Positions 1 through 57,615 of a stretch of DNA of 64,000 nt are shown piece after piece. A program made the translations under genes and the position numbers. The stretch is from Elusimicrobiota bacterium. GTDB taxonomy: Bacteria; Elusimicrobiota; Elusimicrobia; UBA1565. Position 1 is the stretch's first letter; each line of letters begins with the position of its first letter. The stretch covers positions 186,001 through 250,000 of the forward strand of contig JACPXC010000059.1 in NCBI GenBank assembly GCA_016196755.1, in the 5' to 3' direction. The notes beneath the pieces are model-generated. The model saw nothing but the letters and a program-made list of their open reading frames with translations, was not told the origin of the DNA and searched no databases.

Positions 1-991
1 TGGCCGCGAAAGGGTGTCCCAGGGCGACGGCTCCGCCGTTGACGTTGACGCGCCCGAGGTCGAGGTCCAGCTCCTGGGCGTCAAGCAGGAGCTGGGCCGC
101 GAAGGTCTCGTTGATCTCCCAAAGGTCAACGTCCGAGGCCTTCCAGCTTGCCTTAGCCAGAGCGGCCCGGACCGCGGGCACCGAGGCCACGCCCATCCGG
201 GCCGGCGCTACCCCGGCATAAGCGCCGGCGACGACGCGGGCCAGGGGCTTGAGGCCGCGGCTCTTGGCCCAGCCCGCCTCGGCCAGATAGACCGCCGCGC
301 CTCCGTCGGCCAGGGCGTGGGTGTTGCGCGCGGTGACGAGGCCGAAGGGATGGACGGCCTTCGCCGCGGCCAAGTCCGCCGGCGTCAGGTTCTCCGAGGC
401 GATGTCGTCGGCCGCAACGCCTCCGGCGGCGACGACCTCCTCGGCCAGACGCGCGCGCGCCGCCAAGGCCCGGCGGTGGCTCTCCAGAGCCCAGCGGTCC
501 TGGTCGGCGCGTGAAATCTCGGCTTCCTTGGCCAGCCCCTCGACGGCGGCGGCGATCGGGGAAGAGCAGGAGACGTCGGTGAACGACGGCGCGAAGATCT
601 CCTTGGAGACCCGGCTCGGACAGTCCGCCCCGCCGGCGAGGACGGCGGCGGCGTCGCCGGTGGCGATGTCCTGCGCGGCCTCGATGACGGCGCTCAAGCC
701 CCCGCCGCAGGCGAAGTTCACGGTCAGAGCCGGGACCTTGGGCGGCAGGCCGGCCTTCCAGGCCGCGTAGCGCGCGCCGTAGCAGCCGTGCGGGCCGTCT
801 TGATAGGCGTTGGCCCAGACCACGCGGTCGGGGACGTGCCCGGCCCGGTCCCAGGCCCCGCGCAGGGCCGCGCCGCCCAGCTCGAAGGGGTCCAAGGCCG
901 CCAGCGCCCCTCCTCGCGAGCCGTCGCCCTTGCGCCCGCGCGCCCAGGCGCAGAACGGGGTACGGGCGCCGGCCAGGAGGACGGTCTCCAT
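1..991 (-). CDS. Thiolase / acetyl-CoA acyltransferase family, 3' end missing
   Basis: My reading of the minus strand from an ATG at 991 gives about 330 residues that run off the window edge. The N-terminus (METVLLAGARTPF) is typical of thiolases. A Cys in NFACGGGLSA sits where the acyl-accepting Cys of the family lies, although the usual motif is CASG. Further on, WEINETFAAQ matches the NEAFA motif and NVNGGAVALGHP matches the C-terminal block before the catalytic Cys, which lies outside the window. The family condenses or cleaves acyl-CoA thioesters. Whether this copy is biosynthetic or beta-oxidative cannot be told. It is divergent from coaD, and a TATAGT box lies 9 bp before its ATG. Confidence 0.88.
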   Translation of the reverse strand, partial: METVLLAGARTPFCAWARGRKGDGSRGGALAALDPFELGGAALRGAWDRAGHVPDRVVWANAYQDGPHGCYGARYAAWKAGLPPKVPALTVNFACGGGLSAVIEAAQDIATGDAAAVLAGGADCPSRVSKEIFAPSFTDVSCSSPIAAAVEGLAKEAEISRADQDRWALESHRRALAARARLAEEVVAAGGVAADDIASENLTPADLAAAKAVHPFGLVTARNTHALADGGAAVYLAEAGWAKSRGLKPLARVVAGAYAGVAPARMGVASVPAVRAALAKASWKASDVDLWEINETFAAQLLLDAQELDLDLGRVNVNGGAVALGHPFAA

Positions 992-1000
992 GTGCCGGAC

Positions 1001-1022
1001 ACTATAGGAAAATTGGTACAGT
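1001..1022. promoter_or_regulatory. Divergent -10 boxes for thiolase and coaD
   Basis: On the minus strand TATAGT (1006-1001) lies 9 bp before the thiolase ATG. On the plus strand TACAGT (1017-1022, preceded by TGG as in an extended -10) lies 9 bp before the coaD ATG. The two boxes are only 10 bp apart, so each promoter's -35 region lies over or beyond the other's start. Neither gene has a Shine-Dalgarno sequence, so transcripts would carry leaders of about 2-3 nt. No good -35 match is visible for either. Confidence 0.55.
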
Positions 1023-1031
1023 CGGCCCGTA

Positions 1032-1526
1032 ATGCCGCGCATCGCCGTCTATCCCGGCAGCTTCGACCCCATCACCAACGGGCATATGGACATCGTCCGC
1101 CGGGCCCGGCGCCTCTTCGACAAGGTCATCTTGACCGTGGCGGTCAACAGGTCCAAGAATTCGACCTTCACCCTCAAGGAACGCGTGGCGATGGCCAAGG
1201 CCTGCGTCCGCGGTCTCTCCGGCGTCGAGGTCGACACCTTCGAGGGGCTCCTGGTCGACTACCTCAAGAAACGCGGCTCGCGGGTCATCATCCGCGGCGT
1301 GCGCGCGGTCAGCGACATGGAGTACGAGTTCCAGATGGCCTCGATGAACCGCGCCATCTCGCCCGAGGTGGAGTCGGTCTTCCTGATGCCCGACGAGCGC
1401 TACACCTACCTCTCCTCCTCGATCATCAAGGAGGTGGCCCGCATGGGCGCGCGGGTCGGCGATTACCTTCCCGCGCCGGCCGTCGAGGCCGTGCGCAAGC
1501 GCTTCTCCCGGAGGACCCGTCCATGA
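1032..1526 (+). CDS. coaD: Phosphopantetheine adenylyltransferase
   Basis: A 164-residue protein of normal length for CoaD, which adenylates 4'-phosphopantetheine to dephospho-CoA in coenzyme A synthesis in the cytoplasm. The N-terminal nucleotidyltransferase block YPGSFDPITNGHMDI carries the ATP-binding xNGH signature (family T/HxGH). The C-terminal LSSSIIKEVA block is the second conserved ATP-binding motif, the family's ISS(T/S)xxR/K region. The gene overlaps the next by ATGA, so the following three genes are probably translationally coupled to it. Confidence 0.96.
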   Translation: MPRIAVYPGSFDPITNGHMDIVRRARRLFDKVILTVAVNRSKNSTFTLKERVAMAKACVRGLSGVEVDTFEGLLVDYLKKRGSRVIIRGVRAVSDMEYEFQMASMNRAISPEVESVFLMPDERYTYLSSSIIKEVARMGARVGDYLPAPAVEAVRKRFSRRTRP

Positions 1527-1996
1527 CCACCCACGCCAAGAACCGCCGCGGCCGGTTCTTCATCGAGCCCAACTTCCAGCGACGCTTCATGGCCCGCCTG
1601 GCCGGCTGGACCGCGGTCTCGACCCTGATAACGGGCACCGTCGTCTACGCGCTCCTGCTCCAGGCCGACGCGCGCTCCGCCGGGGAGTTCTTCTACGTGG
1701 TCCAAGAGGCCGGCTCGCACCCCGAGATGCTCTCGCATACCGCCATCGTCCTTCCCGCCCTGGCGCTGTCGTTGGCGCTCAACCTCGCGCTGTCGCTCGT
1801 CTTCGCGCTGGTCTACTCCCAACGCCTGGCCGGCCCCATCCACCGCTTCAAGACCGACATCGAGCGGCTCGAGAAGGGCGAGCCGGTCAAGCCGGTCTTC
1901 CACCTGCGCGGCAAGGACGAGTTCCAGGACCTCGGCCACGCCTTCGACGCCCTGCTCAAGCGCCTGGCCGAGAAAGGGTTCCTCAAGCAGCCATGA
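1523..1996 (+). CDS. Two-helix membrane protein with HAMP domain, no output domain
   Basis: A 157-residue protein starting at the ATG that overlaps the coaD stop (ATGA). A basic N-terminus (residues 1-25) is followed by a membrane helix (about 27-48), a short outer loop, a second helix (about 74-100) and a HAMP-like linker (SQRLAGPIHRFKTDIERLEKGE). The protein ends soon after the HAMP, so it has no kinase, cyclase or methyl-accepting domain. It may pass a signal to a partner protein or be a stand-alone regulator. It overlaps the next gene by ATGA, which points to a coaD-led operon. The specific role is unknown. Confidence 0.75.
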   Translation: MTTHAKNRRGRFFIEPNFQRRFMARLAGWTAVSTLITGTVVYALLLQADARSAGEFFYVVQEAGSHPEMLSHTAIVLPALALSLALNLALSLVFALVYSQRLAGPIHRFKTDIERLEKGEPVKPVFHLRGKDEFQDLGHAFDALLKRLAEKGFLKQP

Positions 1997-2574: not shown

Positions 2575-2576
2575 CT

Positions 2577-2605: not shown

Positions 2606-2609
2606 AAGG

Positions 2610-6344: not shown

Positions 6345-6378
6345 ACCGCATCTTACCAATCCGGCCGATGTCCCGCGT

Positions 6379-12325: not shown

Positions 12326-12350
12326 AGTCTATCAAACACCGTGCTATAAT
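12326..12350. promoter_or_regulatory. Divergent -10 boxes, both leaderless
   Basis: On the minus strand TAGACT (12331-12326, preceded by TGA) lies 6 bp before the GTG of the YfhO-like gene. On the plus strand TATAAT (12345-12350, preceded by TGC, a full extended -10) lies 6 bp before a GTG at 12357 that opens a 15-codon frame. The two boxes are 13 bp apart. Confidence 0.6.
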
Positions 12351-12356
12351 CAGGCC

Positions 12357-12404
12357 GTGGTGGCGAAAATCGTCTTCCTCATCGGCCTCACCTCCGGCCT
12401 CTAG
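12357..12404 (+). CDS. Possible 15-residue leaderless leader peptide
   Basis: A frame of GTG plus 14 sense codons and TAG, read VVAKIVFLIGLTSGL. It starts 6 bp after a perfect extended -10 (TGCTATAAT) and ends 58 bp before the GcvT-like start. The peptide is hydrophobic with one Lys, like a small membrane or leader peptide. Its existence depends on the leaderless reading of the promoter. It may have no role of its own beyond being at the transcript's 5' end. The following 58 bp are C-rich and hold an AGAGG before the next ATG. Confidence 0.35.
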   Translation: MVAKIVFLIGLTSGL

Positions 12405-12462
12405 CCCCGCCGTTTCCCCCCGCCGCCGCCCCCGATCCCAAGCCCCTTATAAGAGGAAAACC

Positions 12463-17875: not shown

Positions 17876-18190
17876 CTAGAGCAAACCGACGGCTTCTTCG
17901 ACGCGCTGGACGCAGATGAAGCCGTTGCCGGGGCGATCGAGGCCGAGCGCGTCCTTCACCGCCTTGACGATCTTCGGCGCGGTCTCGGCGGGGACGGTCG
18001 TGAGCAGCACGGTCTTCTCGATCTGGATGAGTCGGCCGACGCGCTCGAACTTTTGGCGCACACCGGTCCCGCTGGCGGGGTGAAAAGTGACCCCGGTCGC
18101 GCCCGCGTCGCGCATGCACCCGATCACGAGTTCCTCATCCTTACGCTGGGCGACGATCGTGATCAAGCGAAGATTCCTAACCTTAGCCAT
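17876..18190 (-). CDS. P-II-like signalling protein
   Basis: A 104-residue protein with the P-II fold pattern: a short first strand (LRLITIVAQRKDEELVI), the alpha-1 segment MRDAGATGVTFHPASGTG, a central strand with IEKTVLLTTVPAET, and the C-terminal PGNGFICVQRVEEAVGL. The T-loop is short and lacks the Tyr that is uridylylated in GlnB, so it is more like the P-II-like proteins without nitrogen control. TTGACA-17 bp-TATGCT lies upstream with the ATG only 7 bp later, so it is probably leaderless. It is convergent with the MDR gene at a 4-bp gap. No transporter or amtB is adjacent to say what it senses. Confidence 0.8.
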   Translation of the reverse strand: MAKVRNLRLITIVAQRKDEELVIGCMRDAGATGVTFHPASGTGVRQKFERVGRLIQIEKTVLLTTVPAETAPKIVKAVKDALGLDRPGNGFICVQRVEEAVGLL

Positions 18191-18197: not shown

Positions 18198-18226
18198 AGC
18201 ATAGCGGTAGCCGCCGGAAATGTCAA
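18198..18226 (-). promoter_or_regulatory. Sigma-70 promoter of the P-II-like gene
   Basis: On the minus strand a perfect TTGACA (18226-18221), 17 bp, then TATGCT (18203-18198). The ATG follows 7 bp later. Only 7 bp separate this -35 box from the divergent ECF promoter's GGAACTT. Confidence 0.72.
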
Positions 18227-31616: not shown

Positions 31617-31645
31617 AGTTTAGCGTCCGAGGCTCCGGCTGTCAA
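31617..31645 (-). promoter_or_regulatory. Strong sigma-70 promoter of the redox operon
   Basis: On the minus strand TTGACA (31645-31640), 17 bp, TAAACT (31622-31617), then 6 bp to the ATG at 31610. No ribosome site fits, so the operon mRNA is probably leaderless. Confidence 0.75.
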
Positions 31646-36037: not shown

Positions 36038-36066
36038 TTGCCGCCGAAAGGCTTAATCAGTACAAT
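36038..36066 (+). promoter_or_regulatory. Promoter of the nucleoside transporter
   Basis: TTGCCG (36038-36043), 17 bp, TACAAT (36061-36066), then 7 bp to the ATG at 36074. No Shine-Dalgarno sequence is present, so the mRNA is probably leaderless. The TTG at 36038 belongs to the -35 box, not to a start codon. Confidence 0.65.
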
Positions 36067-36073: not shown

Positions 36074-37330
36074 ATGGAGAATATCATCAGCCTCTTCGGC
36101 ACCTTCGTCCTCATCGGCATCGCGGTGGCCTGCTCGTCAAACCGCAAGGCCATCAACTGGAAGACGGTGGGGTTGGGAATGCTCCTGCAATTCCTTTTCG
36201 CCATCATCGTGCTGTGGGCGCCGCCGGGCCGCGCTTTCTTCGCCTTCATGAACGATGCCATCGTCAAGCTTTTGAGCTTCCAGGAAGAGGGGGGGAGGTT
36301 CATCTTCAACGCCCTTGCCATCCCGCCGTGGAAGGAAGGAACGCTGGGCTTCTTCTTCGCCTTCCAGGTGCTGACCACCATCATCTTCTTCTCGTCGCTG
36401 ATGTCGATCCTCTACTACCTGGGAGTCCTGCAGGTCGTGGTGGTGTTCTTCGCCCGGATCATGGCCAAGACCATGAACACCTCGGGGGCCGAGTCGCTCT
36501 CCGCCTCGGCCAACATCTTCGTGGGACAGACCGAGGCGCCGCTCCTTATTAAGCCCTACGTGGAGACCATGACGGACTCCGAGCTCTTGACCGTCATGGT
36601 GGGCGGCATGGCGACGGTGGCGGGTGGGGTCATGGCGGCCTATGTGGGGATGCTGCAGCCCTACTTCCCGGATATCGCCGGGCACCTGCTGGCGGCCAGC
36701 GTCATGTCCGCGCCGGCGGCGCTGGTCATGGCCAAGATCCTATTGCCCGAGACCTCCAAGCCGAAGACCCTGGGCATGGTCAAGCTGGACTACGAGGACC
36801 CATCGCTCAACGTCATCGAAGCGGCGGCCAACGGGGCCACGACCGGCCTGCACCTGGCTCTCAACGTCGGCACGATGCTCATCGCCTTCATGGCGCTCAT
36901 GGCCATGGCCAACTGGATGGTGTCCGCCTCCGCGAACCTGGTGGGCTTTAGCGGCGTCACGCTGGAGAGCATCCTGGGCCGGCTTTTCGCCCCCTTGGCT
37001 TGGATCATGGGCGTGCCCTGGGTCGACTGCCGGCAGATCGGGTTTTTGATGGGCGAGAAGACCGTGCTAAACGAGTTCGTCGCCTACACCCATCTGGCCG
37101 AGTTCCTCAAGAACAACCCCGGCGGGCTCCAAGAGCGCTCCGTCATCATCGCCACCTACGCGCTCTGCGGCTTCTCGAACTTCCTTTCCATCGGCATCCA
37201 GATCGGCGGCATCGGGGTCATCGCCCCCAACCGCCGCCAAGACCTGGCCCGTCTCGGCATCAAAGCGCTGATCGGGGGGACGTTGGCCTGCTTCATGACC
37301 GCCACCCTGGCGGGCATCCTCGTCAAGTAG
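36074..37330 (+). CDS. Concentrative nucleoside transporter (CNT/NupC family)
   Basis: A 418-residue membrane protein with a typical CNT layout: an N-terminal helix, the motif GQTEAPLLIKPYVETMTDSE (substrate-site block of this family), then AANGATTGLHLALNVGTMLIAF and the C-terminal FLMGEKTVLNEFVAYTHLAEF. The family co-imports nucleosides with Na+ or H+. The TACAAT box sets the start. It may feed nucleosides from the medium into salvage. It stands alone; no deaminase or phosphorylase is adjacent. Confidence 0.93.
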   Translation: MENIISLFGTFVLIGIAVACSSNRKAINWKTVGLGMLLQFLFAIIVLWAPPGRAFFAFMNDAIVKLLSFQEEGGRFIFNALAIPPWKEGTLGFFFAFQVLTTIIFFSSLMSILYYLGVLQVVVVFFARIMAKTMNTSGAESLSASANIFVGQTEAPLLIKPYVETMTDSELLTVMVGGMATVAGGVMAAYVGMLQPYFPDIAGHLLAASVMSAPAALVMAKILLPETSKPKTLGMVKLDYEDPSLNVIEAAANGATTGLHLALNVGTMLIAFMALMAMANWMVSASANLVGFSGVTLESILGRLFAPLAWIMGVPWVDCRQIGFLMGEKTVLNEFVAYTHLAEFLKNNPGGLQERSVIIATYALCGFSNFLSIGIQIGGIGVIAPNRRQDLARLGIKALIGGTLACFMTATLAGILVK

Positions 37331-38401: not shown

Positions 38402-39454
38402 TTACGCCAGAGCGTTCGGGATCTTGACCTTGTTGTCGTCGAGGAACGCCGACCACTTGTTGCCTTTGCGGGCCTTCCAGCTGCCCTTGTGGTAGGCGTA
38501 GGACGCCAGGAGCGGGAAGGACATCGTCGCCTCGGAGAACACCATCTGCTCCCAGACCACGTCGACCTTGCCCCACGAGCAGGCCTCGCGCAAAGTCGAG
38601 CCCGAGAGCGCCCCGTCGCGCTCGTCGGCCACGCTGATCTGCACGGCGTACTTGTGCATCTTGACGTCGAGGCCGATCATCTCGGCGCCGACGGTGATGT
38701 CCTGGGCGAAGTTCTTGGGGACGCCGCCGCCGATCATGAGGAGGCCGGTGTCCTTGGCCGCCAGCTTCACGCGCACCAGCTCGCGGAAGTCGCGGGCCGA
38801 GTCGATCATGACGTGGGACTCGGGGTTGTGCCACTGGTGGTGCAGGAGCCCGAAGCCCGCCGAGCAGTCCGAGAAGGCGGGGACGAAGATCGGGACCTTC
38901 TTCTTGAAGCACTCCAGCACGATCGAGTCGGTGACCTTGGCGTTCTTGACCAGGTACTTGCCCATCTCGTCGATGAACTGGCGCGAGGAGTAGGCGCGCG
39001 GCTCGAGCGAGCCGGCGATCTTGGAGATCGTGTTGTCGCACTTGCCGAGCTCGTCCTCGTCGATGAAGGTGTCGTAGATGCGGTCGACGCGCAGGTCGCG
39101 GAGCTGCTTGTCGTCGACCCACTTCGAGCCCAGGTAGTGCTTGAAGCCGAGGGCCTCGAAGAAGTCCTGGTCGATGATGTTGGCGCCGGTGGAGACGATG
39201 GCGTCGACCATGTTATGGCGCACCAAGTCGTAGACCACGCGCTTGAGGCCGGCCGAGATGAGCGAACCCGCCAGGCACAGGACGACCGAGCAGTCCTTGT
39301 CGGCCAGCATGCGGTCGTAGATGTCCGATGCCCGCGCCAAGTCCTTGGCCGAGAAGGCCATCTTCGAATAGGCCTGCATGAGGGGGACGGCATCGAACTC
39401 GGTGATGTCCAGGTGCTCGACGGTCTCTTTGAGAAGATCAGACTTCTTTGGCAT
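38402..39454 (-). CDS. Deoxyhypusine-synthase-like polyamine enzyme
   Basis: A 350-residue protein of the deoxyhypusine synthase superfamily. The NAD-site region IVSTGANIIDQDFFEALG and the block MIGGGVPKNFAQDI are clear. The active-site Lys is K296 in SWGKV, which forms an imine with the aminobutyl group in the family. Bacteria have no hypusine target, and bacterial homologues are known as homospermidine- or bis-guanidino-polyamine-forming enzymes. It stands beside an agmatinase-family gene, so a polyamine role is likely. A TGATATCAT promoter and GGAGG lie upstream. Confidence 0.85.
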   Translation of the reverse strand: MPKKSDLLKETVEHLDITEFDAVPLMQAYSKMAFSAKDLARASDIYDRMLADKDCSVVLCLAGSLISAGLKRVVYDLVRHNMVDAIVSTGANIIDQDFFEALGFKHYLGSKWVDDKQLRDLRVDRIYDTFIDEDELGKCDNTISKIAGSLEPRAYSSRQFIDEMGKYLVKNAKVTDSIVLECFKKKVPIFVPAFSDCSAGFGLLHHQWHNPESHVMIDSARDFRELVRVKLAAKDTGLLMIGGGVPKNFAQDITVGAEMIGLDVKMHKYAVQISVADERDGALSGSTLREACSWGKVDVVWEQMVFSEATMSFPLLASYAYHKGSWKARKGNKWSAFLDDNKVKIPNALA

Positions 39455-39601: not shown

Positions 39602-39607
39602 TAGACT
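39602..39607 (+). promoter_or_regulatory. -10 box of a leaderless gene
   Basis: TAGACT at 39602-39607, then 6 bp, then the GTG at 39614. The same box and spacing occur before the YfhO-like gene. No ribosome site is present. Confidence 0.55.
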
Positions 39608-39613: not shown

Positions 39614-40804
39614 GTGAAAGCGGCGCTGCTGCTCGCCCTGATGGCGCTCCTCTCGTCGACGGCGGAGGCCGCCGCGGCCAAGCGCCCGGCACGTCCCAAG
39701 CGGCCGGCGCGCCACCGCGTCAAGGTCGAAGCCCCGCGGCTGACCGACCCCACCGCCGTGAGTTGGCCGCGGCGCCTCAAGCCCGGACGCTGGACGCCGG
39801 CCGCGGCCGACGCGCTCGAGCGCCTGCTCCAACACCTCGGCGAGGGCGCCACCGGCTACTCGCGCGCCGACCCGCCGGCCGCCGTCTTCGTACTCGATGA
39901 CGCGGCGTTGAGCGGCTCGCCCGGCGACGCGCTCCTGGCCCGCCTCACGGCGGAGGCCGCGTTCAGTTTCGACGAGTCGTTCTGGAAGCAACTGCCGCCG
40001 CACTACGGTGCCGCCCGCGCGCGCGCCGGCTGGCAGAGCTTCCAAGGGCAGCCGCGGACGGTGTGGGCGCGCGACCCGCACTACCTCATGTACCGCAAGG
40101 CCCTGCACGCGGCCTACGCGTCCTTGTGCCGCGACGCAGGCCGGAAGACCTGCGCGCGCTGGCGCGCGGCGCTTCTCACGGGCCTCGACGAGAGCGCCCT
40201 CCAACGCATGGCGCGCCAGGTCGTCGCCGAGGCGCTGCGCGTGCCGGTGACGCCGGAGCGGGTCGGCGACTCGCCCGAGGACCCCGCCCCCACGGCCGTC
40301 ACGGCGGCCCTGCGGGTCGTGCCCGAGATGCTCGACCTCGTGCGCGTCCTGCAGGACAGGGGCTTCGACGTCTGGGTCATGAGCGCCTCGAGCCAGTACG
40401 CGGCGCTCGAGGCCGCGCGCCTCTACGGCGTCCATCCGACCCGAGTGGTGGGCCTGCGCCAGAAGGTCACCAACGGGCAAATCACGCCCGACATCCTCCA
40501 ACCCGTGCCGGAGGGCGCTGGACTGGCCGAGGCGCTGACCTTGTTCCTGGGCCGGCCCCCGGCCCTCGCGGTGGGACGCCTCGAGGACGGCCCGCTGCTC
40601 GACTATGGCGATGGCAGCGGCCTGAGCCTGCTCCTGGCCGAGCCGTCGACGGCGCCTCCCGAGGCGGCCCGCAACGGCTGGCTCGTCCAGCCGCCCTTCA
40701 GCCCGGTGCGCGAGCCGCAGGCGGCGGTCTACCCGCCGCCGCCGGGCACCCGGCCGCCGGCCGAGCCGGCCCCGCCCGCGCCGGACGCCGCGGGAGGGCC
40801 TTGA
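39614..40804 (+). CDS. Secreted HAD-like protein, probably without full catalytic set
   Basis: A 396-residue protein with a signal peptide (MKAALLLALMALLSSTAEA). A basic Pro/Arg/Lys stretch comes next. The HAD core begins at VFVLDDAAL near residue 95, then an alpha cap with HYLMYRKALHAAY, then DVWVMSASSQYAALEAARLYG (motif II Ser) and RQKVTNGQITPD (motif III Lys). The first motif is DDAA, so the second catalytic Asp of DxD is absent. The last 60 residues are Pro-rich. It could be a degenerate phosphatase-like binding protein, or the Asp could be supplied elsewhere. The GTG is 6 bp after TAGACT. Confidence 0.78.
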   Translation: MKAALLLALMALLSSTAEAAAAKRPARPKRPARHRVKVEAPRLTDPTAVSWPRRLKPGRWTPAAADALERLLQHLGEGATGYSRADPPAAVFVLDDAALSGSPGDALLARLTAEAAFSFDESFWKQLPPHYGAARARAGWQSFQGQPRTVWARDPHYLMYRKALHAAYASLCRDAGRKTCARWRAALLTGLDESALQRMARQVVAEALRVPVTPERVGDSPEDPAPTAVTAALRVVPEMLDLVRVLQDRGFDVWVMSASSQYAALEAARLYGVHPTRVVGLRQKVTNGQITPDILQPVPEGAGLAEALTLFLGRPPALAVGRLEDGPLLDYGDGSGLSLLLAEPSTAPPEAARNGWLVQPPFSPVREPQAAVYPPPPGTRPPAEPAPPAPDAAGGP

Positions 40805-41957: not shown

Positions 41958-41966
41958 GTCGGACTC

Positions 41967-41972
41967 ATCCTA
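41967..41972 (-). promoter_or_regulatory. -10 box of the TatD gene
   Basis: TAGGAT on the minus strand (41972-41967), 9 bp before the GTG. It follows the T-run of the upstream terminator directly, so the end of one unit abuts the start of the next. Confidence 0.45.
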
Positions 41973-41973
41973 C

Positions 41974-42006
41974 AAAACGGGACCGCCCCCCGAGCGGGGG
42001 GCGGTC
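41974..42006 (-). terminator. Rho-independent terminator of the 90-residue gene
   Basis: An 11-bp stem (42006-41996 with 41991-41981), a 4-nt loop, and TTTT at 41977-41974 three bases after the stem, read on the minus strand. It lies just after the stop at 42029. Confidence 0.85.
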
Positions 42007-43191: not shown

Positions 43192-44730
43192 CTATCGAGG
43201 ATAGCCCGCCGACTTCGCCTTGTCCAGCTTGAGAGCGGCGGCGCTCTCGCGGGCGGCCTCGGGACCGCGGCCCAACTCGGCCAAGACCTCGGCGAGCCGT
43301 CGGCGGGTCTCGGCGTCGTCGGGGTCGAGCGCCGCGGCGCGCTCGAGGGCCTCCCGCGCGGCGGCCGTCCGGCCGCGGCCGCGCCGGCAGAGGCCCAGGT
43401 AAAACCAGGCGCGGGCGTCCTGGGGTTCGAGCGCCGCGGCCTTCTCGAGCGCCGCCTCGGCCTCGGGCCAGCGCTTTTCTGCGGCATAGGCCTTGCCGAG
43501 GTTCATCCAGGCCAGGCCCAGGCCGGGCTTGAGACGCACGGCGCGCTCGAGGGTCTCGGCGCAGCGCCGCGTCTCGCCCTTGTCGCAAAGGATCAGCCCG
43601 CGCAGGAACTGGTTGTACGGCGAGACGTCCGGCAGGCGCTTGAGATAGCCCAGCGCGCGGATCGGATCGCTCTCCCGGTAGAGGTCGGCCGCCGACAGGA
43701 GGGCCAGGGCCCCGGCCTCGTGCATGACCGCGTCCTTGGCGCCGAAGCCCGGGGAGGCCCCCTCGCGTACGGCGTCGGAGTCCATGTTGGCCCACATGCG
43801 CCGCTCGTCGGCCAACGTGACGAAGGAGCGCAGGCGAGTCTCCCCGCCCGAGGCGGCGATCTCGCCCCAGAGCATCATATGGGCCCCGGCGCGCTTGAGG
43901 ATGGCGCGTGCCTCGGCGTGGGTGCGTGGCAGCTCGGCGTCGGGGAGCTTGAGGCTCATGACGGCCGCGTCCTCCTCCATGAGCTCCTCTAGCTTGTGGG
44001 CCAACAACGACTGCAGGACCAGCCCGTCCTTGGCGGCCTCGCCCGCGCCGAGAAAGGGTGCCACGACGACGTTGAGGCGGGTGCCGGTCATTTCAAGCGG
44101 GGAGGAAGGTGTGCCCTGCCGGAAGGCGCTCCGGACCGCGAGGAGGGTCATTATAAGGAGCAGGGCGGCAAGCCAGGGCGCCGCGCGGCGCAGGCGCCTG
44201 GCCGGGGACTCCGCCCCGCCGCCGATCGCGAAGAGCCGGTGCCGGCCGGCGATGTTCTTGAGTCGGTGCTCGCCCATGTCGGCAATCTCGACGTCGAGCT
44301 GGGGGGCGACCATGTCGCGCACGGCGCTCGAGAGGCAGATGCCGCCCGGCGGGGCCAGGGCCTGCAGGCGGGCCGCGATGTTGACCCCCGAGCCGAAGGC
44401 GTCGCCGTCCTTCTCGGTGACGTCGCCCACGTGGAGCCCGATTCGCACGACGAGGGGCTTGTCCCCCGGCCGCGCGGCGTTGCGGGCTTCCAGCGCCTCC
44501 TGCGTGGCGATGGCGCAGCGCGTCGCGTCGACCGCGCTGGGGTACACCGAGAGGATGGCGTCGCCGACGAACTTTAGCGCCCGCCCGCCGTGGCGCGTGA
44601 TGATCGGCACGAGCAGGGAGTTGTGCTCATCGAGGAGACCGAGCGTCGCCGGCTCGTCCTCGGCCATCATCTTCGAGTAGCCGAAGATGTCCGAGAACAT
44701 CACGGCGGCCAGGCGCTGCGTCGCGGCCAT
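43192..44730 (-). CDS. Class III adenylate/guanylate cyclase with TPR domain
   Basis: A 512-residue protein. The N-terminal cyclase domain has the metal Asp D14 in MFSDIFGYSK and D57 in FVGDAIL, and GSGVNIAARLQAL near residues 115-127 holds the transition-state Asn/Arg. A membrane helix at about 192-210 anchors it. The C-terminal half has TPR-like helices (GLAWMNLGKAYAAEKRWPEA, ARAWFYLGLCRRGRGRTAAA). This arrangement is common in bacterial cyclases of the adenylate-cyclase-TPR kind. TPR may bind a regulator. The ATG has TACGAT 6 bp before it. Confidence 0.88.
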   Translation of the reverse strand: MAATQRLAAVMFSDIFGYSKMMAEDEPATLGLLDEHNSLLVPIITRHGGRALKFVGDAILSVYPSAVDATRCAIATQEALEARNAARPGDKPLVVRIGLHVGDVTEKDGDAFGSGVNIAARLQALAPPGGICLSSAVRDMVAPQLDVEIADMGEHRLKNIAGRHRLFAIGGGAESPARRLRRAAPWLAALLLIMTLLAVRSAFRQGTPSSPLEMTGTRLNVVVAPFLGAGEAAKDGLVLQSLLAHKLEELMEEDAAVMSLKLPDAELPRTHAEARAILKRAGAHMMLWGEIAASGGETRLRSFVTLADERRMWANMDSDAVREGASPGFGAKDAVMHEAGALALLSAADLYRESDPIRALGYLKRLPDVSPYNQFLRGLILCDKGETRRCAETLERAVRLKPGLGLAWMNLGKAYAAEKRWPEAEAALEKAAALEPQDARAWFYLGLCRRGRGRTAAAREALERAAALDPDDAETRRRLAEVLAELGRGPEAARESAAALKLDKAKSAGYPR

Positions 44731-44736: not shown

Positions 44737-44745
44737 ATCGTAGCA
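44737..44745 (-). promoter_or_regulatory. Extended -10 of the cyclase gene, leaderless
   Basis: TGCTACGAT on the minus strand (44745-44737), 6 bp before the ATG at 44730. No Shine-Dalgarno sequence is present. Confidence 0.6.
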
Positions 44746-47594: not shown

Positions 47595-48897
47595 CCTTCT
47601 CGATTGTATCAAAACGCCGCGCGGCAACCGCCGCCGCGGCCCCGACGGCCAAGAGCGGCACGCAGGGGATGCGGTAGCGATAGTAGCCCTGCGAGCTCGA
47701 GAAGGCCAGGAAGTAGCCCAGGATCAGGCCGAGGAAGGCGGCCTCGGCGCGGCGCCGCTCTCGCCAGAACCTGAGCAGCCCCGCCGCGCAGAGGAGGTAG
47801 AGGGCGGCCAAAGCGGCCATGTAACCCAGCTGCAGGGGGATGAGCCACGGGTAGCGGCGCAGCAGGGCCACCGTCCCGCGCCCCGAGGCCTTGACCCGGT
47901 ACTCCGCGTCGATGCCCTCGGGCCGGCCGGCCCACTGCGGCAGCATCTCCAGGCCGGTGCCGGCCAGGGTCTTGAGCAGGCCCCAGGAACAGTAGCGCAC
48001 GAGCAGGAACGGATGGGCGCCGATGACGCGGGCGCCGACCCGGCCGTAGACCTGGCTGCGCTCGGCATCGCTAGCGTAGCCCCCGGGATGCTCGGCGTCG
48101 GCGACGGCCTGGAGCTCGAGGTCGCGTTCCTTGACCGTACCGCCCAGGCGCAGAGACTCGATCCCCGCGGCCATGTAGCTCAGCATCGCCACGCCGCCCA
48201 CCCCCGAGAACGCCGACACGCCGGTCGCCCTAAAATTACGTGCCATCCAGGCCCCGGGCAGGAGGTAGGCCGCGAGCAGGAAACAGGCCGCCGCCTTGCG
48301 GTCGCGCCGCCAGACCCAGACCAGGGCCACGGGCAGATGGAAGCTCAGCGGGCGGACCAGAGCGCCGACGCCCCAGAGCAGGCCGCAGAGCGCCGCGCCC
48401 TTGAGGCCGGGCCGCTCGATCTGGTCCCAGGTGCGGACGAAAGCCGCGACGACCAAGAAGACGAACACGGTCTCGCTGAGGAGCATGGGGGTGTGGAATA
48501 TGGTCACGAGGTCCAGCGCCACGGCCAAGGCGCCCACAGCCGCGGCCAGTCGCCCCCAACGGGGCTCGAGCCAGCGCCACAACAGGACCGCCGTCGCCGC
48601 TCCGATCAGGCACTGCGCCAAGGCGGCCGGCAGTACCGGCGCGTCAAAGAGCGCCACGAAAGGCGCCAGGAAGAGCGGATAGCCGGGAGTGCGGAACGTG
48701 TTGGGCACAAACGGCTCCGGCCCGGTCGAGAAGACGCCGTGGTCCAGCATGTTGCCGGCCAGCGCCAGATAGCCCACGCCGTCGATGGGGACGAAGCGCG
48801 CGGGGTCGCCCGCGGCCAGAAGCCAGAGCCCCAGGCGCGGGGCCAGCGCCGCGGCCCAGAGCCACCAGGGAGCGCCCAAAAGCATCCCTTTGCGCAT
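47566..48897 (-). CDS. GT39/GT83-like membrane glycosyltransferase
   Basis: A 443-residue membrane protein of the dolichyl-phosphate-mannose-protein mannosyltransferase type. An early outer loop has IDGVGYLALAGNMLDHGVFS with an acidic pair, and a further loop with NTFRTPGYPLFLAPF. About ten helices follow. The family moves sugars from lipid carriers to lipids or proteins on the outside. The ATG at 48897 has TAGGCT 5 bp upstream. It is divergent from the GT2 gene, whose product could make the lipid-linked sugar. Confidence 0.85.
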   Translation of the reverse strand: MRKGMLLGAPWWLWAAALAPRLGLWLLAAGDPARFVPIDGVGYLALAGNMLDHGVFSTGPEPFVPNTFRTPGYPLFLAPFVALFDAPVLPAALAQCLIGAATAVLLWRWLEPRWGRLAAAVGALAVALDLVTIFHTPMLLSETVFVFLVVAAFVRTWDQIERPGLKGAALCGLLWGVGALVRPLSFHLPVALVWVWRRDRKAAACFLLAAYLLPGAWMARNFRATGVSAFSGVGGVAMLSYMAAGIESLRLGGTVKERDLELQAVADAEHPGGYASDAERSQVYGRVGARVIGAHPFLLVRYCSWGLLKTLAGTGLEMLPQWAGRPEGIDAEYRVKASGRGTVALLRRYPWLIPLQLGYMAALAALYLLCAAGLLRFWRERRRAEAAFLGLILGYFLAFSSSQGYYRYRIPCVPLLAVGAAAAVAARRFDTIEKDGIQENRGS

Positions 48898-48902
48898 CGG
48901 CT

Positions 48903-48933
48903 AGCCTACAAAATCGGGAGGATTTGGTATCCT
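48903..48933. promoter_or_regulatory. Divergent -10 boxes, both leaderless
   Basis: Minus strand TAGGCT (48908-48903) lies 5 bp before the glycosyltransferase ATG. Plus strand TATCCT (48928-48933, extended by TGG) lies exactly 6 bp before the GT2 ATG at 48940. No ribosome sites are seen on either side. Confidence 0.55.
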
Positions 48934-48939
48934 CGGCCC

Positions 48940-49824
48940 ATGGCGCTCAGCGTGACGGCGGTCCTTCCGGCGTACAACGAGGAAGGCGCGGTGGCCAAGG
49001 TGGCCGCGGCGGTGAAGGCCGCCCTGGCCGGCGCCGGGCTCGAGGCCTACGAGGTCCTCGTAGTCGACGACGGCTCGAGCGACGGCACCGCCGCCGCCGC
49101 CGAGGCCGCGGGGGCGCGCGTCGTGCGCCACCCCGTCAACAGCGGCTACGGCCGGGCGCTCCTGACGGGCGCCTCCGAGGCCAAGCATCCCTGGCTCCTT
49201 TACCTCGACGCCGACGGTTCCTATCGGGCCGAAGACGCGGTGCGTCTCCTGGCCGACGCTCCGGCCTGCGACATGGTGGTCGGCGCCCGGCAGGGAAGCC
49301 TGTTCTGGGGCAACCCGGGCAAGGCCTTCCTGCGCTTTCTCCAACTCAAGCTCTCGGCCTTCGTCGCGGGGATGCCGATCCCCGACACCAACTCCGGCCT
49401 GCGCCTGGTGCGCAAGGCCGCCCTCGAGCACAACCTGCCGGTACGCTGCTACGGCTTCTCGCTTTCGACGACGATGACGCTGTCCTTCATCCAGCAGCGC
49501 CTGTTCGTGAAGTTCGTCCCCGTGGCCTACGACCCGCGCAAGGGCAAGTCCAAGGTGAAGCTCCTGCGCGACTCGCTGAGGACCCTCCAGCTCATGCTCG
49601 AGATCATCCTCTTCTTTAACCCGCTCAAGTTCGCGGTCACGGTCGCCGGACTGCTCCTGCTCTTAGCCGCCGCCCTGGCGGCCTCCTCGTCGTGCTCGGG
49701 CTCGGCGCTCCAGGCGCTGAGCGCCGTGCTGGCCGCCTTCGCGGCCCTGCCCGTGCTGATCGCCGGCTGCGTGCTCGACGCCCTGCGCCTGCACGGGCAG
49801 GCCGACCGGCACTGGAAGATATAA
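48940..49824 (+). CDS. GT2-family polyprenyl-sugar glycosyltransferase
   Basis: A 294-residue protein. The GT-A fold shows VLPAYNEEG at the N-terminus, VLVVDDGSSDGT (donor site) and LLYLDADGSY (DxD metal motif). Two membrane helices at the C-terminus (about 227-250 and 258-283) suggest a dolichyl/polyprenyl-phosphate sugar synthase. The product lipid could feed the divergent GT39-like protein. The ATG is 6 bp after TATCCT. It is convergent with speA at a 7-bp gap. Confidence 0.9.
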   Translation: MALSVTAVLPAYNEEGAVAKVAAAVKAALAGAGLEAYEVLVVDDGSSDGTAAAAEAAGARVVRHPVNSGYGRALLTGASEAKHPWLLYLDADGSYRAEDAVRLLADAPACDMVVGARQGSLFWGNPGKAFLRFLQLKLSAFVAGMPIPDTNSGLRLVRKAALEHNLPVRCYGFSLSTTMTLSFIQQRLFVKFVPVAYDPRKGKSKVKLLRDSLRTLQLMLEIILFFNPLKFAVTVAGLLLLLAAALAASSSCSGSALQALSAVLAAFAALPVLIAGCVLDALRLHGQADRHWKI

Positions 49825-49831: not shown

Positions 49832-51787
49832 CTACGTCAGGGGGACGGTGTCCGACTCGGCGGGCGCCGTCAGACCGACGGCCGCGCGCGGCCCGTGGTC
49901 GATGTACGTGTACTGCCGCAGCACCGCCTCGTAGTAGTCGAGGAGCTCGACGCCTTCGCGCGGCTTCAAAGCACCGGCTCGGACCTGGGTGTCCAGCGCA
50001 GTCTTGACCATCTTCACGAGCTCGTATTCGCTGTACTGCGTGTCGTCTAGGACGTCGCGCACGGTCTGGCCGCGGATGACTTCCTCGACATAGTAGCCCG
50101 ACGGCTCCTGGTCGTCCTCGAAAACGTGGACCTCGTTGACGCGGCCGAAGAGGTTGTGGATGTCGCCCATCGTGGCCTGGTAGGCACCCATGAGGAAGAT
50201 GCCGAGGTAGTAGGGCTCGCCGTTGAGCGGGTGCACGGGCAGGGTGTCGCGCGGCCGGTCCCCGCAGACGTACTGGTCGACCTTGCCGTCGGAGTCGCAG
50301 GTGATGTCGACGAGGCCGGCCTCGCGGCTGGGCTCTTCGTCTAGCCGGTGCAGGGGGACGATCGGGAACATATGGTTGATCGCCCAGCTGTCGGGCAGCG
50401 ACTGGAACAGCGAGAAGTTGACGAGGTACTGGTCGTGCAGGGTCCGCGTCATGCGCTGGACGTCCTCGGGGACGCTCTCGGCCTGGGGCAGGAGCTTGCG
50501 AATCTCGAGGCAGAGGCGCCAGAACAGGGTCTCGGCCTTGGCCTTCTCCTCCAGGTCGATGTAGCCCAAGCGGAAGAGCGAGTTGGCCTCTTCGAGCCAG
50601 CGCAGGCCGTCGTGGTAGCTCTCGCCGATCCCCTCGAGGGTCAGGTCCTTGAGGGCGTCGCGGATCTCGCGCACGACGACGTGGTCGTCGGGCGTCTCGT
50701 CGACCGGGATGACGGAGGCGCCGGTCTCGATGGAGCCGAAGATGTTGACGACCAGCATCGCGTGGTGGGCCGTCGTGGAGCGGCCCGACTCGGTGACGAT
50801 GTTGGGCTCGGGGACCTTCTCCTGGGCGCAGACGGTCTGGATCGAGTAGACCAGGCCGCGCGCGTACTCGTCGAGCGTGTAGTTGATCGAGTGGTCGTTG
50901 GAGGTCTTGGTGCCGTCGTAATCGACGCCGAGGCCGCCGCCGCAGTCGAGGTACTCGAGCGGCACGCCCATCTTGCGCATCTTGGCGTAGATGCGGGTGG
51001 CTTCCTTGACCCCGTCCTGGATGGCCTGGATCTCGGTGATCTGGGAGCCGATGTGGAAGTGGAGCATCTTGAGGTGCTCGATGGCGCCCTCGGCCTTGAG
51101 GGTGCGCACCGCGGCCACGAGCTCGGGCGTCGACAGCCCGAACTTGGCGGCGTGCCCGCCGGAGGTCTTCCACTTGCCCGAGCCCTCGGTGGAGAGCTTG
51201 GCGCGCAGGCCGATGAGGGGCTGGACGCCGGTCTCGCGGGCCGCGCGCAGCAGGAGGTCGAGCTCGCCGGGCTTTTCGATGACGACGACGACCTGCTTGC
51301 CCAGCTTGACGCCCAGGCAGGAGAGGCGCATCATCTCCTCGTCCTTGTAGCCGTTGACGATGGTGAGGCCGTCGGCGCGGTTCATCGCGAGGACGGCCAT
51401 CAACTCCGGCTTCGAGCCCGCTTCCAGGCCCATGCGGTAGGGCTTGCCGGCCTCGAGCACTTCCTCGACGACCTCGCGCAGCTGGTTGACCTTGATCGGG
51501 AAGACGCCCTGGTACTTGCCCTGGTAGTTGTGCTCCTCGATCGCGCGCCGGAAGGTGCGGTTGAGGAGGTTCACCCGGTCGTGGAGGATGTCCTGGAAGC
51601 GGATGAGGACCGGGAGCTTGATGCCTCGCGCGGCCACGTCGTCTACGACGGCCTTGATGTCGATGATCTGGCGGGCGCTGCGCTTGGGCTGGTAGATGAG
51701 GTGGCCGTTGTCGGCCACCGCGAAGTAGTTCTGTCCCCAACCCTTGATATTGTAGAGCTTCGCGGCGTCTTTGACCGACCAAGTCAT
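49832..51787 (-). CDS. speA: Biosynthetic arginine decarboxylase
   Basis: A 651-residue protein of normal SpeA length. The PLP-binding Lys is K99 in GVFPIKVNQ. The long fold-III barrel and C-terminal domain follow, with YLDCGGGLGVDYDGT and TESGRSTTAHHA typical of SpeA. It converts arginine to agmatine, the first step of the polyamine route suggested by the DHS-like and agmatinase-like genes 10 kb away. It has TTGAAT-17-GATAAT upstream and the ATG 8 bp after the -10. Confidence 0.96.
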   Translation of the reverse strand: MTWSVKDAAKLYNIKGWGQNYFAVADNGHLIYQPKRSARQIIDIKAVVDDVAARGIKLPVLIRFQDILHDRVNLLNRTFRRAIEEHNYQGKYQGVFPIKVNQLREVVEEVLEAGKPYRMGLEAGSKPELMAVLAMNRADGLTIVNGYKDEEMMRLSCLGVKLGKQVVVVIEKPGELDLLLRAARETGVQPLIGLRAKLSTEGSGKWKTSGGHAAKFGLSTPELVAAVRTLKAEGAIEHLKMLHFHIGSQITEIQAIQDGVKEATRIYAKMRKMGVPLEYLDCGGGLGVDYDGTKTSNDHSINYTLDEYARGLVYSIQTVCAQEKVPEPNIVTESGRSTTAHHAMLVVNIFGSIETGASVIPVDETPDDHVVVREIRDALKDLTLEGIGESYHDGLRWLEEANSLFRLGYIDLEEKAKAETLFWRLCLEIRKLLPQAESVPEDVQRMTRTLHDQYLVNFSLFQSLPDSWAINHMFPIVPLHRLDEEPSREAGLVDITCDSDGKVDQYVCGDRPRDTLPVHPLNGEPYYLGIFLMGAYQATMGDIHNLFGRVNEVHVFEDDQEPSGYYVEEVIRGQTVRDVLDDTQYSEYELVKMVKTALDTQVRAGALKPREGVELLDYYEAVLRQYTYIDHGPRAAVGLTAPAESDTVPLT

Positions 51788-51795
51788 CGAAAGAG

Positions 51796-51824
51796 ATTAT
51801 CCGACATTCCCGCCCGCGATTCAA
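51796..51824 (-). promoter_or_regulatory. Sigma-70 promoter of speA
   Basis: On the minus strand TTGAAT (51824-51819), 17 bp, GATAAT (51801-51796). The ATG follows 8 bp later, leaving a leader of only 1-2 nt. Confidence 0.65.
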
Positions 51825-51865
51825 CCGGCAGGAACGTTGCTTTCAAGCTTCCGCCCGGTGACACG

Positions 51866-52633: not shown

Positions 52634-52642
52634 CCCCCTTTC

Positions 52643-52667
52643 CCGCCGGCGGACCGGCGGTTATACT
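52643..52667 (+). promoter_or_regulatory. Hairpin and -10 box between two genes
   Basis: A 7-bp stem (52643-52649 with 52654-52660) is followed by a short T/A run. TATACT (52662-52667) lies 6 bp before the ATG at 52674. The hairpin may end the methyltransferase unit and occupies the place of a -35 element for the next gene. Confidence 0.5.
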
Positions 52668-52673
52668 TCCGGC

Positions 52674-54370: not shown

Positions 54371-54373
54371 TCT

Positions 54374-55258: not shown

Positions 55259-55314
55259 CCGGGCTCGAGCATGCGCTCGTCGATCTCCGCGCCCCCGCCT
55301 AGGTTGGTGAACAT
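55255..55314 (-). CDS. 19-residue frame with duplicated N-terminus
   Basis: The frame reads MFTNLGGGAEIDERMLEPG and ends with TGA overlapping the next ATG (ATGA). Its first seven residues equal those of the zinc-ribbon gene. It starts inside the VOC gene end. It may be a small protein or the leftover 5' end of a duplicated gene. Confidence that it is translated is low. Confidence 0.35.
   Translation of the reverse strand: MFTNLGGGAEIDERMLEPG
55295..55314 (-). repeat. 20-bp direct repeat, copy 2
   Basis: 19 of 20 bases match 54831-54850. It lies over the stop of the VOC gene (TAG at 55301-55299) and the start of the 19-residue frame. Confidence 0.8.
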
Positions 55315-55697: not shown

Positions 55698-55747
55698 GAC
55701 GCGATCCTGGTCGGCGACGGCAATCTTATTCCTCAGGGAGGTCAGCG

Positions 55748-57082
55748 TTAGTATCCCTCGTTCGCCTTCGTCTTCGCCGGCCCGATGACGTCCTTGCCGA
55801 CGTACTTGCGCAAACGCGAGGGGACCTCGACCGACCCGTCGGCGCGCTGGAAGTTCTCGAGGATGGCGGCGAAGACCCGCCCCACGGCCAGGCCCGAGCC
55901 GTTGAGGGTATGGACCAGCTCGGGGGCCGCCTTCGGACCGCGGCGGAAGCGCGCGTTCATGCGCCGGGCCTGGAAGTCCCCGCAGTTCGAGCACGACGAC
56001 GTCTCGCGCCAGCGCCGCTCGGCGGGGAACCAGACCTCGAGGTCGTAGGTCTTGCAGGAGGCGAACCCCAGGTCCGCGGTGCAGAGCTCGAGCATCCGGT
56101 AGGGCAGGTGCAGCTCGCGCAGGATGCCGGCCGCGTGCTCGGTCAGCTGCTCGAGCGCCGACAACGAGTCCTCGGGCTTGGTGATCCAGACCAGCTCCAC
56201 CTTGTCGAACTGGTGCTGCCGGATGAGGCCCTTCACGTCCTTGCCGTAGGAGCCGGCCTCTTGGCGGAAGCAAGGCGTCAGCGCCGTGAGCTTCATCGGA
56301 AGGGCGGCTTCTTCGAGTATGGTCTCGCGCACCAGGTTCGTCAGCGGCACCTCGGAGGTGGGGATCAGATAGAGTGGGAGCGCCGCCTCCGTGCCGGCGG
56401 GGCCGGTGGCGGTCTTGTAGAGGTCCTCCTCGAACTTGGGCAGCTGGCCGGTCCCCTGCAGGACCTCGCTGCGCACGAGATACGGCACCCAGGCCTCGGT
56501 GTAGCCGTTCTGGCCCGTGTGGGTGTCGAGCATGAACTGCGCCAGCGCCCGGTGCAGGCGCGCGAGGTCCCCTTTGAGGACCGAGAAGCGCGAGCCACCG
56601 AGCTTGGCCCCGGCGCCGAAGTCCATCAGCCCCAGCGCCTCGCCCAGCGCCGCGTGGTCCTTGAGCGGGAACGGGGGCGGAGTGGGCTCGGGGTCGGAGC
56701 GCACCAGGCGGTTGTCGGCCTCGGACCTGCCCACCGGCACCGACTCGTGGGGGAAATGGGGGATCCCGAGCAGGAGGTCCGAGAGCTCCTTATCGAGAGC
56801 GGCCAGCTCGGCTTCCTTCTCTGGCATCGCGGCTTTGACCTGGGCGACCTCGTCCATCAGCGCCTGGGCCTTGGCCTCGTCCTTGGCCGCCTTGGCCGCG
56901 CCGATGGCCTTCGAGGCCTCGTTGCGCTTGGAGCGCAGGGTCTCGACCTCCTGCAGGAGGACGCGGTGGCGGTCGCCCAGCGCTAGGGCACTCTCCAGCG
57001 CGGGGAGAGAACGCCGCCCTCTGTCCACCGCTCCCTTTCGGGCGCGGGCAGGGTCGGAGCGCAGTATCTTCGGGTCGTTCAC
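55748..57082 (-). CDS. serS: Seryl-tRNA synthetase
   Basis: A 444-residue class II synthetase. The N-terminal coiled-coil arm is at about 25-105 (SLPALESALALGDRHRVLLQ, KAIGAAKAAKDEAKAQALM). Motif 2 is in TPCFRQEAGSYGKDVKGLIR, and motif 3 is LNGSGLAVGRVFAAILENFQ. It attaches serine to tRNA-Ser and tRNA-Sec. The GTG at 57082 overlaps the stop of the upstream gene (GTGA), so its translation may be coupled to that secreted-protein gene, an unusual arrangement for a synthetase. Confidence 0.96.
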   Translation of the reverse strand: MNDPKILRSDPARARKGAVDRGRRSLPALESALALGDRHRVLLQEVETLRSKRNEASKAIGAAKAAKDEAKAQALMDEVAQVKAAMPEKEAELAALDKELSDLLLGIPHFPHESVPVGRSEADNRLVRSDPEPTPPPFPLKDHAALGEALGLMDFGAGAKLGGSRFSVLKGDLARLHRALAQFMLDTHTGQNGYTEAWVPYLVRSEVLQGTGQLPKFEEDLYKTATGPAGTEAALPLYLIPTSEVPLTNLVRETILEEAALPMKLTALTPCFRQEAGSYGKDVKGLIRQHQFDKVELVWITKPEDSLSALEQLTEHAAGILRELHLPYRMLELCTADLGFASCKTYDLEVWFPAERRWRETSSCSNCGDFQARRMNARFRRGPKAAPELVHTLNGSGLAVGRVFAAILENFQRADGSVEVPSRLRKYVGKDVIGPAKTKANEGY

Positions 57083-57603
57083 CGCGGCTTCCAGTTGACG
57101 GAGATGGTCTTGGTCCCCGTCCGGCCGCTCAGCGACTCGGTGCCGGCGCGCGGCTCGATGGCCGCCTCGACGCGCAGGGCGTCCGGCCAGAAGCCGGCGG
57201 CCTTCAGGCGCGTAAGATGAGTCTGGACGGCCACCCGGTTGATGGGGAGGATGACCTCGATGCCATGGCCGCGCTTGATCTGAGGCACGTGGCGGTCCTC
57301 CAAGAGGAACGGGATGCTCCAGGTCCCCTCGCCGGTCGTACCGAGGCGGCGCAGGCGGGCGCTCAGCGAGAAGCGGATGCGCGCGCCGCTCTCGACGCGG
57401 GTACCCTCGTTGTCGACGGTGAGGACGGCGCGCAGGAGCGCGGCGGGCTTGCCCTCGGGGGGCAGGAGCAGGTTCTCGACCGAATGGTACACCGGCCGGC
57501 CCTTCTGCCCGGGAATGGCCACCTGGAGCGTGGTCGACGACACCATCAGGCCCGCCGAGGCGGGGATGGAGTAGAAGATGAGCGACAAGAGCGCGGCCAG
57601 CAT
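57079..57603 (-). CDS. Secreted protein of unknown function before serS
   Basis: A 174-residue protein with a signal peptide (MLAALLSLIFYSIPASAG). The mature part is beta-rich (SSTTLQVAIPGQKGRPVYHS, RIRFSLSARLRRLGTTGEG) like a late-embryogenesis or Ig-type fold. The ATG has TAGAAT 6 bp upstream, and this box overlaps the rtcB stop codon. It is likely leaderless and carries serS on the same mRNA. Confidence 0.7.
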   Translation of the reverse strand: MLAALLSLIFYSIPASAGLMVSSTTLQVAIPGQKGRPVYHSVENLLLPPEGKPAALLRAVLTVDNEGTRVESGARIRFSLSARLRRLGTTGEGTWSIPFLLEDRHVPQIKRGHGIEVILPINRVAVQTHLTRLKAAGFWPDALRVEAAIEPRAGTESLSGRTGTKTISVNWKPR

Positions 57604-57609
57604 TCTCCG

Positions 57610-57615
57610 ATTCTA
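57610..57615 (-). promoter_or_regulatory. -10 box overlapping the rtcB stop
   Basis: TAGAAT on the minus strand (57615-57610). Its TAG is the stop codon of rtcB (57615-57613). The ATG of the serS operon's first gene lies 6 bp later. Confidence 0.55.

Follow-up and report, generated by a model that had tools for sequence, protein, structure and literature searches.

Promoter-like TANNNT hexamers directly upstream of start codons suggest leaderless or near-leaderless expression in an uncultured Elusimicrobiota bacterium

The present analysis concerns the hexamer TANNNT, which lies a few base pairs upstream of many start codons in the genome of an Elusimicrobiota bacterium (4.59 Mb in 67 contigs, 69% GC) and was noticed in one stretch of it, positions 186,001-250,000 of contig JACPXC010000059.1 (64,000 nucleotides, hereafter the window). 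The hexamers very probably belong to sigma-70 promoters that abut the start codons and give leaderless or near-leaderless mRNAs, the absence of a leader being suggested by the spacing. A sequence-only reading of the window had proposed such promoters, and the proposal is supported by the promoter-like sequence around the hexamer, the near-exclusion of Shine-Dalgarno (SD) sites, the preference for the first genes of operons, and the footprints in orthologues. Read directly from sequence are the motif, its spacing, its operon-first preference, the SD exclusion, the −10 and −35 enrichment, the conservation, and the spread; that the 5′ end falls on the start codon, to be bound directly by the ribosome, is suggested by the spacing and by analogy with Deinococcus and Actinobacteria.

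Start statistics were collected on a sample of 863 kb (19% of the genome), and a relative, G037, was also examined in depth. Genes were called with a purpose-written program that chooses each start solely from the coding score and the kind of start codon and ignores the upstream sequence. A start is classed as operon-first if the neighboring gene lies on the opposite strand or if the gap to the gene upstream measures 40 bp or more, and as internal otherwise. Two of the 675 called genes (start less than 100 nt from the end of a stretch, or 5′-open) and four "edge" starts were excluded beforehand, leaving 297 operon-first and 372 internal starts. The spacer is the number of base pairs between TANNNT and the start codon, and expected counts are taken from positions further upstream of the same genes.

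When the operon-first starts are aligned at the start codon, the peak predicted by the sequence-only reading is present both in the sample and in the relative. TANNNT is found 5-10 bp upstream of 95/297 operon-first starts (17.3 expected), and exactly 6 bp upstream of 40 of them (2.9 expected, p = 2e-32). The counts at spacers of 5, 6, 7, 8, 9, and 10 bp are 5, 40, 20, 12, 14, and 9, respectively, with about 4 per position beyond. At internal starts, the hexamer occurs at 5-10 bp in 24/372 cases (5.1 expected), 9 of them at 6 bp, 7 at 7 bp, and 0-5 at each of the other spacers. Outside the window, in DNA that had played no part in the proposal, it lies at 5-7 bp in 54/265 first starts versus 8.1 expected (p = 1e-28), and over the whole genome TANNNT-N6-ATG is counted 410 times versus 179 for the N14 control. 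The share of operon-first starts that carry the motif above background is about 26%, (95 − 17.3)/297. The true share is probably higher, given the degeneracy of −10 elements and the miscalling of some starts. Per position, the background is 0.97% before operon-first starts, 0.23% before internal starts, and 0.61% in the window, so that the chance rate assumed at the outset, less than 1 in 200 per position, was somewhat low.

The strongest control compares reading frames. Among all ATG and GTG codons within 60 bases of a called start, the hexamer at 6 bp precedes 44/525 in-frame codons but only 1/297 out-of-frame codons in the window's genome, and 22/320 and 2/184, respectively, in G037.

In the window itself, the hexamer stands 5-7 bp before the start codon at all 11 starts for which this had been stated (Table 1). 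The 9-bp spacers of tatD, coaD, and the thiolase gene, the GATAAT 8 bp before speA, and the TAAGAT 5 bp before GTG 6344, an optional start of the 4605-6344 gene, are also present as described. Two starts can be added to that list, 43190(-) with TATCCT at 7 bp and 47594(-) with TACAAT at 8 bp. By the gene caller's assignment, 11/32 called operon-first starts in the window carry TANNNT at 5-7 bp (0.59 expected, p = 7e-12), namely those at 991, 6344, 12319, 31610, 36074, 39614, 44730, 48897, 48940, 51787, and 52674. This set overlaps with, but differs from, the original 11, of which 12357 and 18190 are not called as starts and 57603 is classed as internal, lying 9 bp after its neighbor.

The surroundings of the hexamer are those of a promoter. 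In the 95 starts aligned on the hexamer, the extended −10 is enriched (T 0.55 and G 0.51), A or C is favored at hexamer positions 4 and 5, and TTG is found upstream with a 17-bp spacer in 14/95 and with 18-19 bp in 7/95, the other listed spacers giving 0-2 each. On these sequence features, the hexamer looks like a sigma-70 −10 element with an extended −10 and a weak −35. SD sites are found at 4/95 first starts with the motif versus 65/202 without it (Fisher p = 8e-9). SD 4-mers occur at 147/372 internal starts, compared with 67.9 in shuffled upstream stretches, and at 69/297 operon-first starts, compared with 38.3. Since SD sites are nearly excluded at motif starts and enriched elsewhere, two modes of initiation coexist, as had been claimed for the window.

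The arrangement also leaves a footprint in orthologues. Among orthologues of window genes in the same family, the motif precedes an in-frame start no more than 12 bases away from the aligned one in 16/39 rows for motif genes and in 1/51 rows for non-motif genes; when any start within 15 codons is accepted, the numbers are 17/39 versus 5/51. Rows in which the match begins past residue 25, or lies at the edge of a stretch, were excluded. The motif is present in 3/3 rows of the GT2 gene at 48940, in 4/5 of the 57603 gene, in 5/7 of the 43190 gene, and in 2/4 of the 52674 gene. For 48940, 52674, and 57603, the start codon has shifted against the protein alignment (−12 to +3 bases), and the spacer stays at 6-8 bp. 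A near full-length, one-piece match to speA is found in 28/38 genomes of the window's order. Thirty speA loci were fetched, of which 3 were unusable and 27 show the start region; with TTG starts allowed, GATAAT or TATAAT lies 5-9 bp upstream of an in-frame start in 15 of these rows, another TANNNT in 5, and neither in 7, and SD 4-mers are seen near the candidate start in 2.

The tatD gene was followed through the window's family (8 genomes). Strict TANNNT is present in G000, G003, and G006, near forms (GATAAT in G001 and TATAAC in G002) stand just upstream of the start after a hairpin-like stretch, and the motif is missing in G004, G005, and G007. Outside the family, G011 has the motif, and in many other genomes the start, read by eye, abuts or overlaps the upstream stop codon. 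Also by eye, tatD of the family has the motif or a near form where a terminator-like hairpin precedes it, and the motif is lacking where tatD begins directly at the end of the upstream gene or inside it.

Several observations weigh against promoters placed at the start codon. Internal starts show a small 6-bp peak of their own (9/372 versus 0.8 expected); our guess is that it reflects misjudged operon borders. The gene starts are the output of our own caller, and the co-movement of motif and start in the orthologues is partly built in, because the script prefers in-frame starts with the motif. Strict TANNNT is absent in 22/39 motif-gene orthologue rows. For the nucleoside transporter gene at 36074, the position of the hexamer is not kept in three orthologues, and in G003 and G006 this gene has a −10 further upstream plus an SD site. 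The mirror control TNNNAT peaks at 6-10 bp as well; TANAAT fits both patterns, and distant spacers and out-of-frame codons were therefore used as controls. In gyrA-flanking loci of the high-GC clade, the 118 first starts give no clean peak (5 at 6 bp, 6 at 9 bp, and 11 at spacer 0, with an extended −10 at 5-7 bp in 1), these loci being non-independent because the same genes recur across them. Finally, at 30/95 motif starts the hexamer is found only at 8-10 bp, which would imply a leader of about 1-4 nt. Such spacers are what one would see if the −10 drove transcription from 5′ ends several nucleotides upstream of the start codon; most mRNAs would then have a leader of some 2-10 nt, which leaves no room for an SD site. 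The usual distance between a −10 element and the transcription start puts +1 on the start codon when the spacer is 6-7 bp, and the peak stands at 6 and then 7 bp, which makes short leaders of this kind rather unlikely.

Two further explanations dispense with a promoter at the start. TANNNT could act in translation, as an A/U-rich recruitment site; it occupies the position of an SD site, and the small peak at internal starts would agree with such a role. However, the hexamer is far rarer at internal than at operon-first starts, it is accompanied by the extended −10 and by a −35 at 17 bp, and at tatD it tracks the operon structure. We have rejected a translation signal on these three grounds and consider it very improbable. 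An artefact of composition, in which AT-rich intergenic stretches supply chance TANNNT near mispredicted starts, would agree with the background being higher upstream of operon-first than of internal starts. The peak, however, is sharp to a single base and restricted to in-frame codons, it is seen again in DNA beyond the window and in related genomes, and the caller is blind to the upstream sequence. The contrast between in-frame and out-of-frame codons leads us to reject this explanation, whose probability we regard as close to nil.

If sigma-70 promoters do abut the start codons, expression can be pictured as follows. Housekeeping sigma-70 promoters would be positioned with the transcription start at the start codon or within about 3 nt of it. 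RNA polymerase would recognize the extended −10 (TGN-TANNNT, T-rich just upstream) together with the weak −35 (TTG at 17 bp), the mRNA would begin with AUG or GUG, and the ribosome with initiator tRNA would bind this 5′-terminal start codon directly. Operon-internal genes and some first genes would rely on SD sites.

By its GyrA, the window's genome belongs among uncultured metagenome-assembled genomes (MAGs) of Elusimicrobiota, with a best match of 81% identity, and in a tree of 46 GyrA rows (midpoint root for drawing only) it lies in a supported clade of 18 rows (99/97) inside the phylum. Counts of TANNNT-N6-ATG and N14-ATG were compared in 45 genomes. The N6/N14 ratio exceeds 1 in 15/15 genomes of the clade (1.26-3.95), in 1/13 other Elusimicrobiota (G050), and in 1/17 outgroups (Myxococcota G060). 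This ratio seems insensitive in AT-rich genomes, and the extended motif was therefore added; its ratio exceeds 1 in 15/15 genomes of the clade (1.9-15.5), in 12/13 other Elusimicrobiota (the exception being G049 with 0.86), and in 2/17 outgroups (G060 and G064, G065 being exactly 1). An excess over the reversed pattern is seen in 29/29 genomes, a set that, judging from identical counts, partly overlaps the 45. Among the outgroups, only the MAG G060 has a clear excess of N6 (174 versus 97; extended motif, 28 versus 9).

Anchored at called starts, the extended −10 is found at 5-7 bp in 20/297 cases in the window's genome (0.86 expected), 11/194 in G037 (0.64 expected), 13/170 in G050 (3.0 expected), 9/118 in G048 (2.1 expected), where the plain TANNNT peak is unclear and only the extended one is seen, and 3/326 in outgroup loci (2.5 expected). 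G050, an uncultured member of the Elusimicrobiales outside the strong clade (53% GC in the sample), has TANNNT at 6 bp in 17/170 first starts; its GyrA neighbors show little genome-wide signal, unlike the clear leaderless-type signature of G050 itself. The trait is thus strong genome-wide in one clade of Elusimicrobiota, and weaker and mixed elsewhere in the phylum, where it is possible but unproven.

The CCUCC anti-SD sequence at the 3′ end of the 16S rRNA is intact (GGATCACCTCCTTT) in G037; the 16S gene was not found in the window's genome or in G048. Ribosomal protein bS21 is present in 13/13 tested genomes that belong to the strong clade or to the order of the window's genome, on which ground a link to loss of bS21 was rejected, and in 26/30 of all genomes tested, the four misses all being among other Elusimicrobiota. 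SD-independent initiation of the Bacteroidetes type was also considered and set aside, SD motifs being enriched in the sample. A wider proposal, to which we give somewhat less than even weight, is that leaderless expression is ancient throughout the phylum and was amplified in the window's clade. There, the position of the promoter would set the protein N-terminus, promoter and start would move as a unit in evolution, and bS21 and the anti-SD would be kept, so that leaderless use would have grown without loss of SD initiation. Lower-GC Elusimicrobiota speak against such a phylum-wide distribution, since their gyrA loci have an extended −10 at 5-7 bp in 0/100 starts versus 0.75 expected.

Comparable arrangements are known from other phyla. 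In Deinococcus-Thermus, TANNNT about 6-7 bp before open reading frames (ORFs) is reported as a −10 bound by RpoD that is conserved across species and coexists with a GGAG class (PMC12340547). The present case is similar in spacing, in the coexisting SD-type class, and in conservation across species; it differs in the phylum, in the enrichment of the extended −10 and −35, and in being known from sequence alone. The ORF-adjacent −10 is given there for nearly one third of all genes of D. radiodurans, (PMC12340547), compared with about 26% of operon-first starts above background here. A 200-kb portion of plasmid 1 of D. deserti served as a positive control, a weak one: the gene model trained on the window's genome found 51 genes in it, and 100 genes were obtained after self-training replaced that model. 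TANNNT with a spacer of 6 bp precedes 5/81 operon-first starts of this portion, with 0-2 at other spacers, and the extended −10 was not found at spacers 0-19.

In the TA-led genes of Zheng et al. 2011, a TANNNT lying about 12 bp ahead of the start is taken as the −10 box of a leaderless mRNA, and high-GC genomes show the form TAnnnT (PMC3160421); the start-adjacent −10 box is the likeness to the present case. The article names the groups that have leaderless genes; Elusimicrobiota do not occur in the text searched, where an "Other Bacteria" row (8/20 genomes) could hide one (PMC3160421). For Mycobacterium tuberculosis, an extensive leaderless transcriptome with TANNNT is reported, its starts mapped by RNA-seq (PMC3898074); the phylum is unrelated. 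Elusimicrobiota appear in an anti-SD table of another paper (PMC10783764). No report of leaderless expression in Elusimicrobiota was found in the open-licence library searched, a scope outside which most subscription papers fall. The leaderless mode is thus already known from Deinococcus and Actinobacteria, and its occurrence in Elusimicrobiota appears to be new in print.

The hexamers of the window are collected in Table 1. The P-II-like, His-rich, coaD, and thiolase identities were matched via translations rather than database hits, and the gene of ATG 1032 is presumably coaD-like, judging from its N-terminus. The 396-aa gene at 39614(+) is taken to be the one that the sequence-only reading called a secreted HAD protein. 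The motif-blind caller placed the P-II start at 18115; the length of the protein and the motif speak for 18190. At 12345-12462, the arrangement TGCTATAAT-6-GTG opens the frame at 12357, which has only 15 codons and lies about 60 bp upstream of gcvT (12463), a gene with its own SD site. The element at 12345 is the promoter either of gcvT, whose leader would then measure 106 nt, or of a leader peptide; no riboswitch is found at 12345-12462 by Rfam at the gathering score.

Table 1. TANNNT and related hexamers upstream of start codons in the window (window coordinates)
Hexamer	Preceded by	Positions	Strand	Spacer and start codon	Gene or remark
TATAGT		1001..1006	-	9 bp, ATG 991	thiolase-like; alternative TAGTGT at 7 bp
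TACAGT	TGG	1017..1022	+	9 bp, ATG 1032	coaD-like
TAAGAT	TGG	6350..6355	-	5 bp, GTG 6344	
TAGACT	TGA	12326..12331	-	6 bp, GTG 12319	YfhO-like, PF09586
TATAAT	TGC	12345..12350	+	6 bp, GTG 12357	15-codon ORF
TATGCT		18198..18203	-	7 bp, ATG 18190	P-II-like, 104 aa
TAAACT		31617..31622	-	6 bp, ATG 31610	His-rich membrane protein
TACAAT		36061..36066	+	7 bp, ATG 36074	NupC-type nucleoside transporter
TAGACT	TTG	39602..39607	+	6 bp, GTG 39614	396 aa
TAGGAT		41967..41972	-	9 bp, GTG 41957	TatD
TATCCT		43198..43203	-	7 bp, ATG 43190	start classed internal
TACGAT		44737..44742	-	6 bp, ATG 44730	adenylate/guanylate cyclase with TPR
TACAAT	TGA	47603..47608	-	8 bp, ATG 47594	Rieske/NirD-like; classed internal
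TAGGCT		48903..48908	-	5 bp, ATG 48897	GT39/PMT_2-like membrane protein; divergent to 48940
TATCCT	TGG	48928..48933	+	6 bp, ATG 48940	GT2
GATAAT		51796..51801	-	8 bp, ATG 51787	speA; strict TANNNT is TAATCT at 6 bp
TATACT		52662..52667	+	6 bp, ATG 52674	280 aa
TAGAAT		57610..57615	-	6 bp, ATG 57603	serS operon start

Divergent gene pairs in which both genes have the motif are closely packed. In the 863-kb sample, 9/12 such pairs have at most 53 bp between the start codons, versus 7/40 pairs with one motif and 4/31 with none. The two of the window are 991/1032 (992-1031, 40 bp apart) and 48897/48940 (48898-48939, 42 bp). At tatD (41958-42000), a GC-rich hairpin with a T run ends directly in the −10, and here the terminator of one gene may continue into the next gene's promoter. 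A hairpin of 7 bp or more lies no further than 10 nt before the −10 at 10/95 motif starts versus 3.0 in shuffles, which is only suggestive of terminator-promoter fusion as a general pattern. As a separate observation, the window encodes a homologue of deoxyhypusine synthase at 38402-39454 (PF01916, 318 bits), about 10 kb from speA (49832-51787).

With this trait, a mostly uncultured phylum would join the small number of bacterial groups that rely heavily on leaderless expression. As the trait varies within one phylum, its gain, its loss, and the switching from SD to leaderless initiation are traceable gene by gene. In such genomes, gene finders built to expect an SD site may set many starts wrongly.

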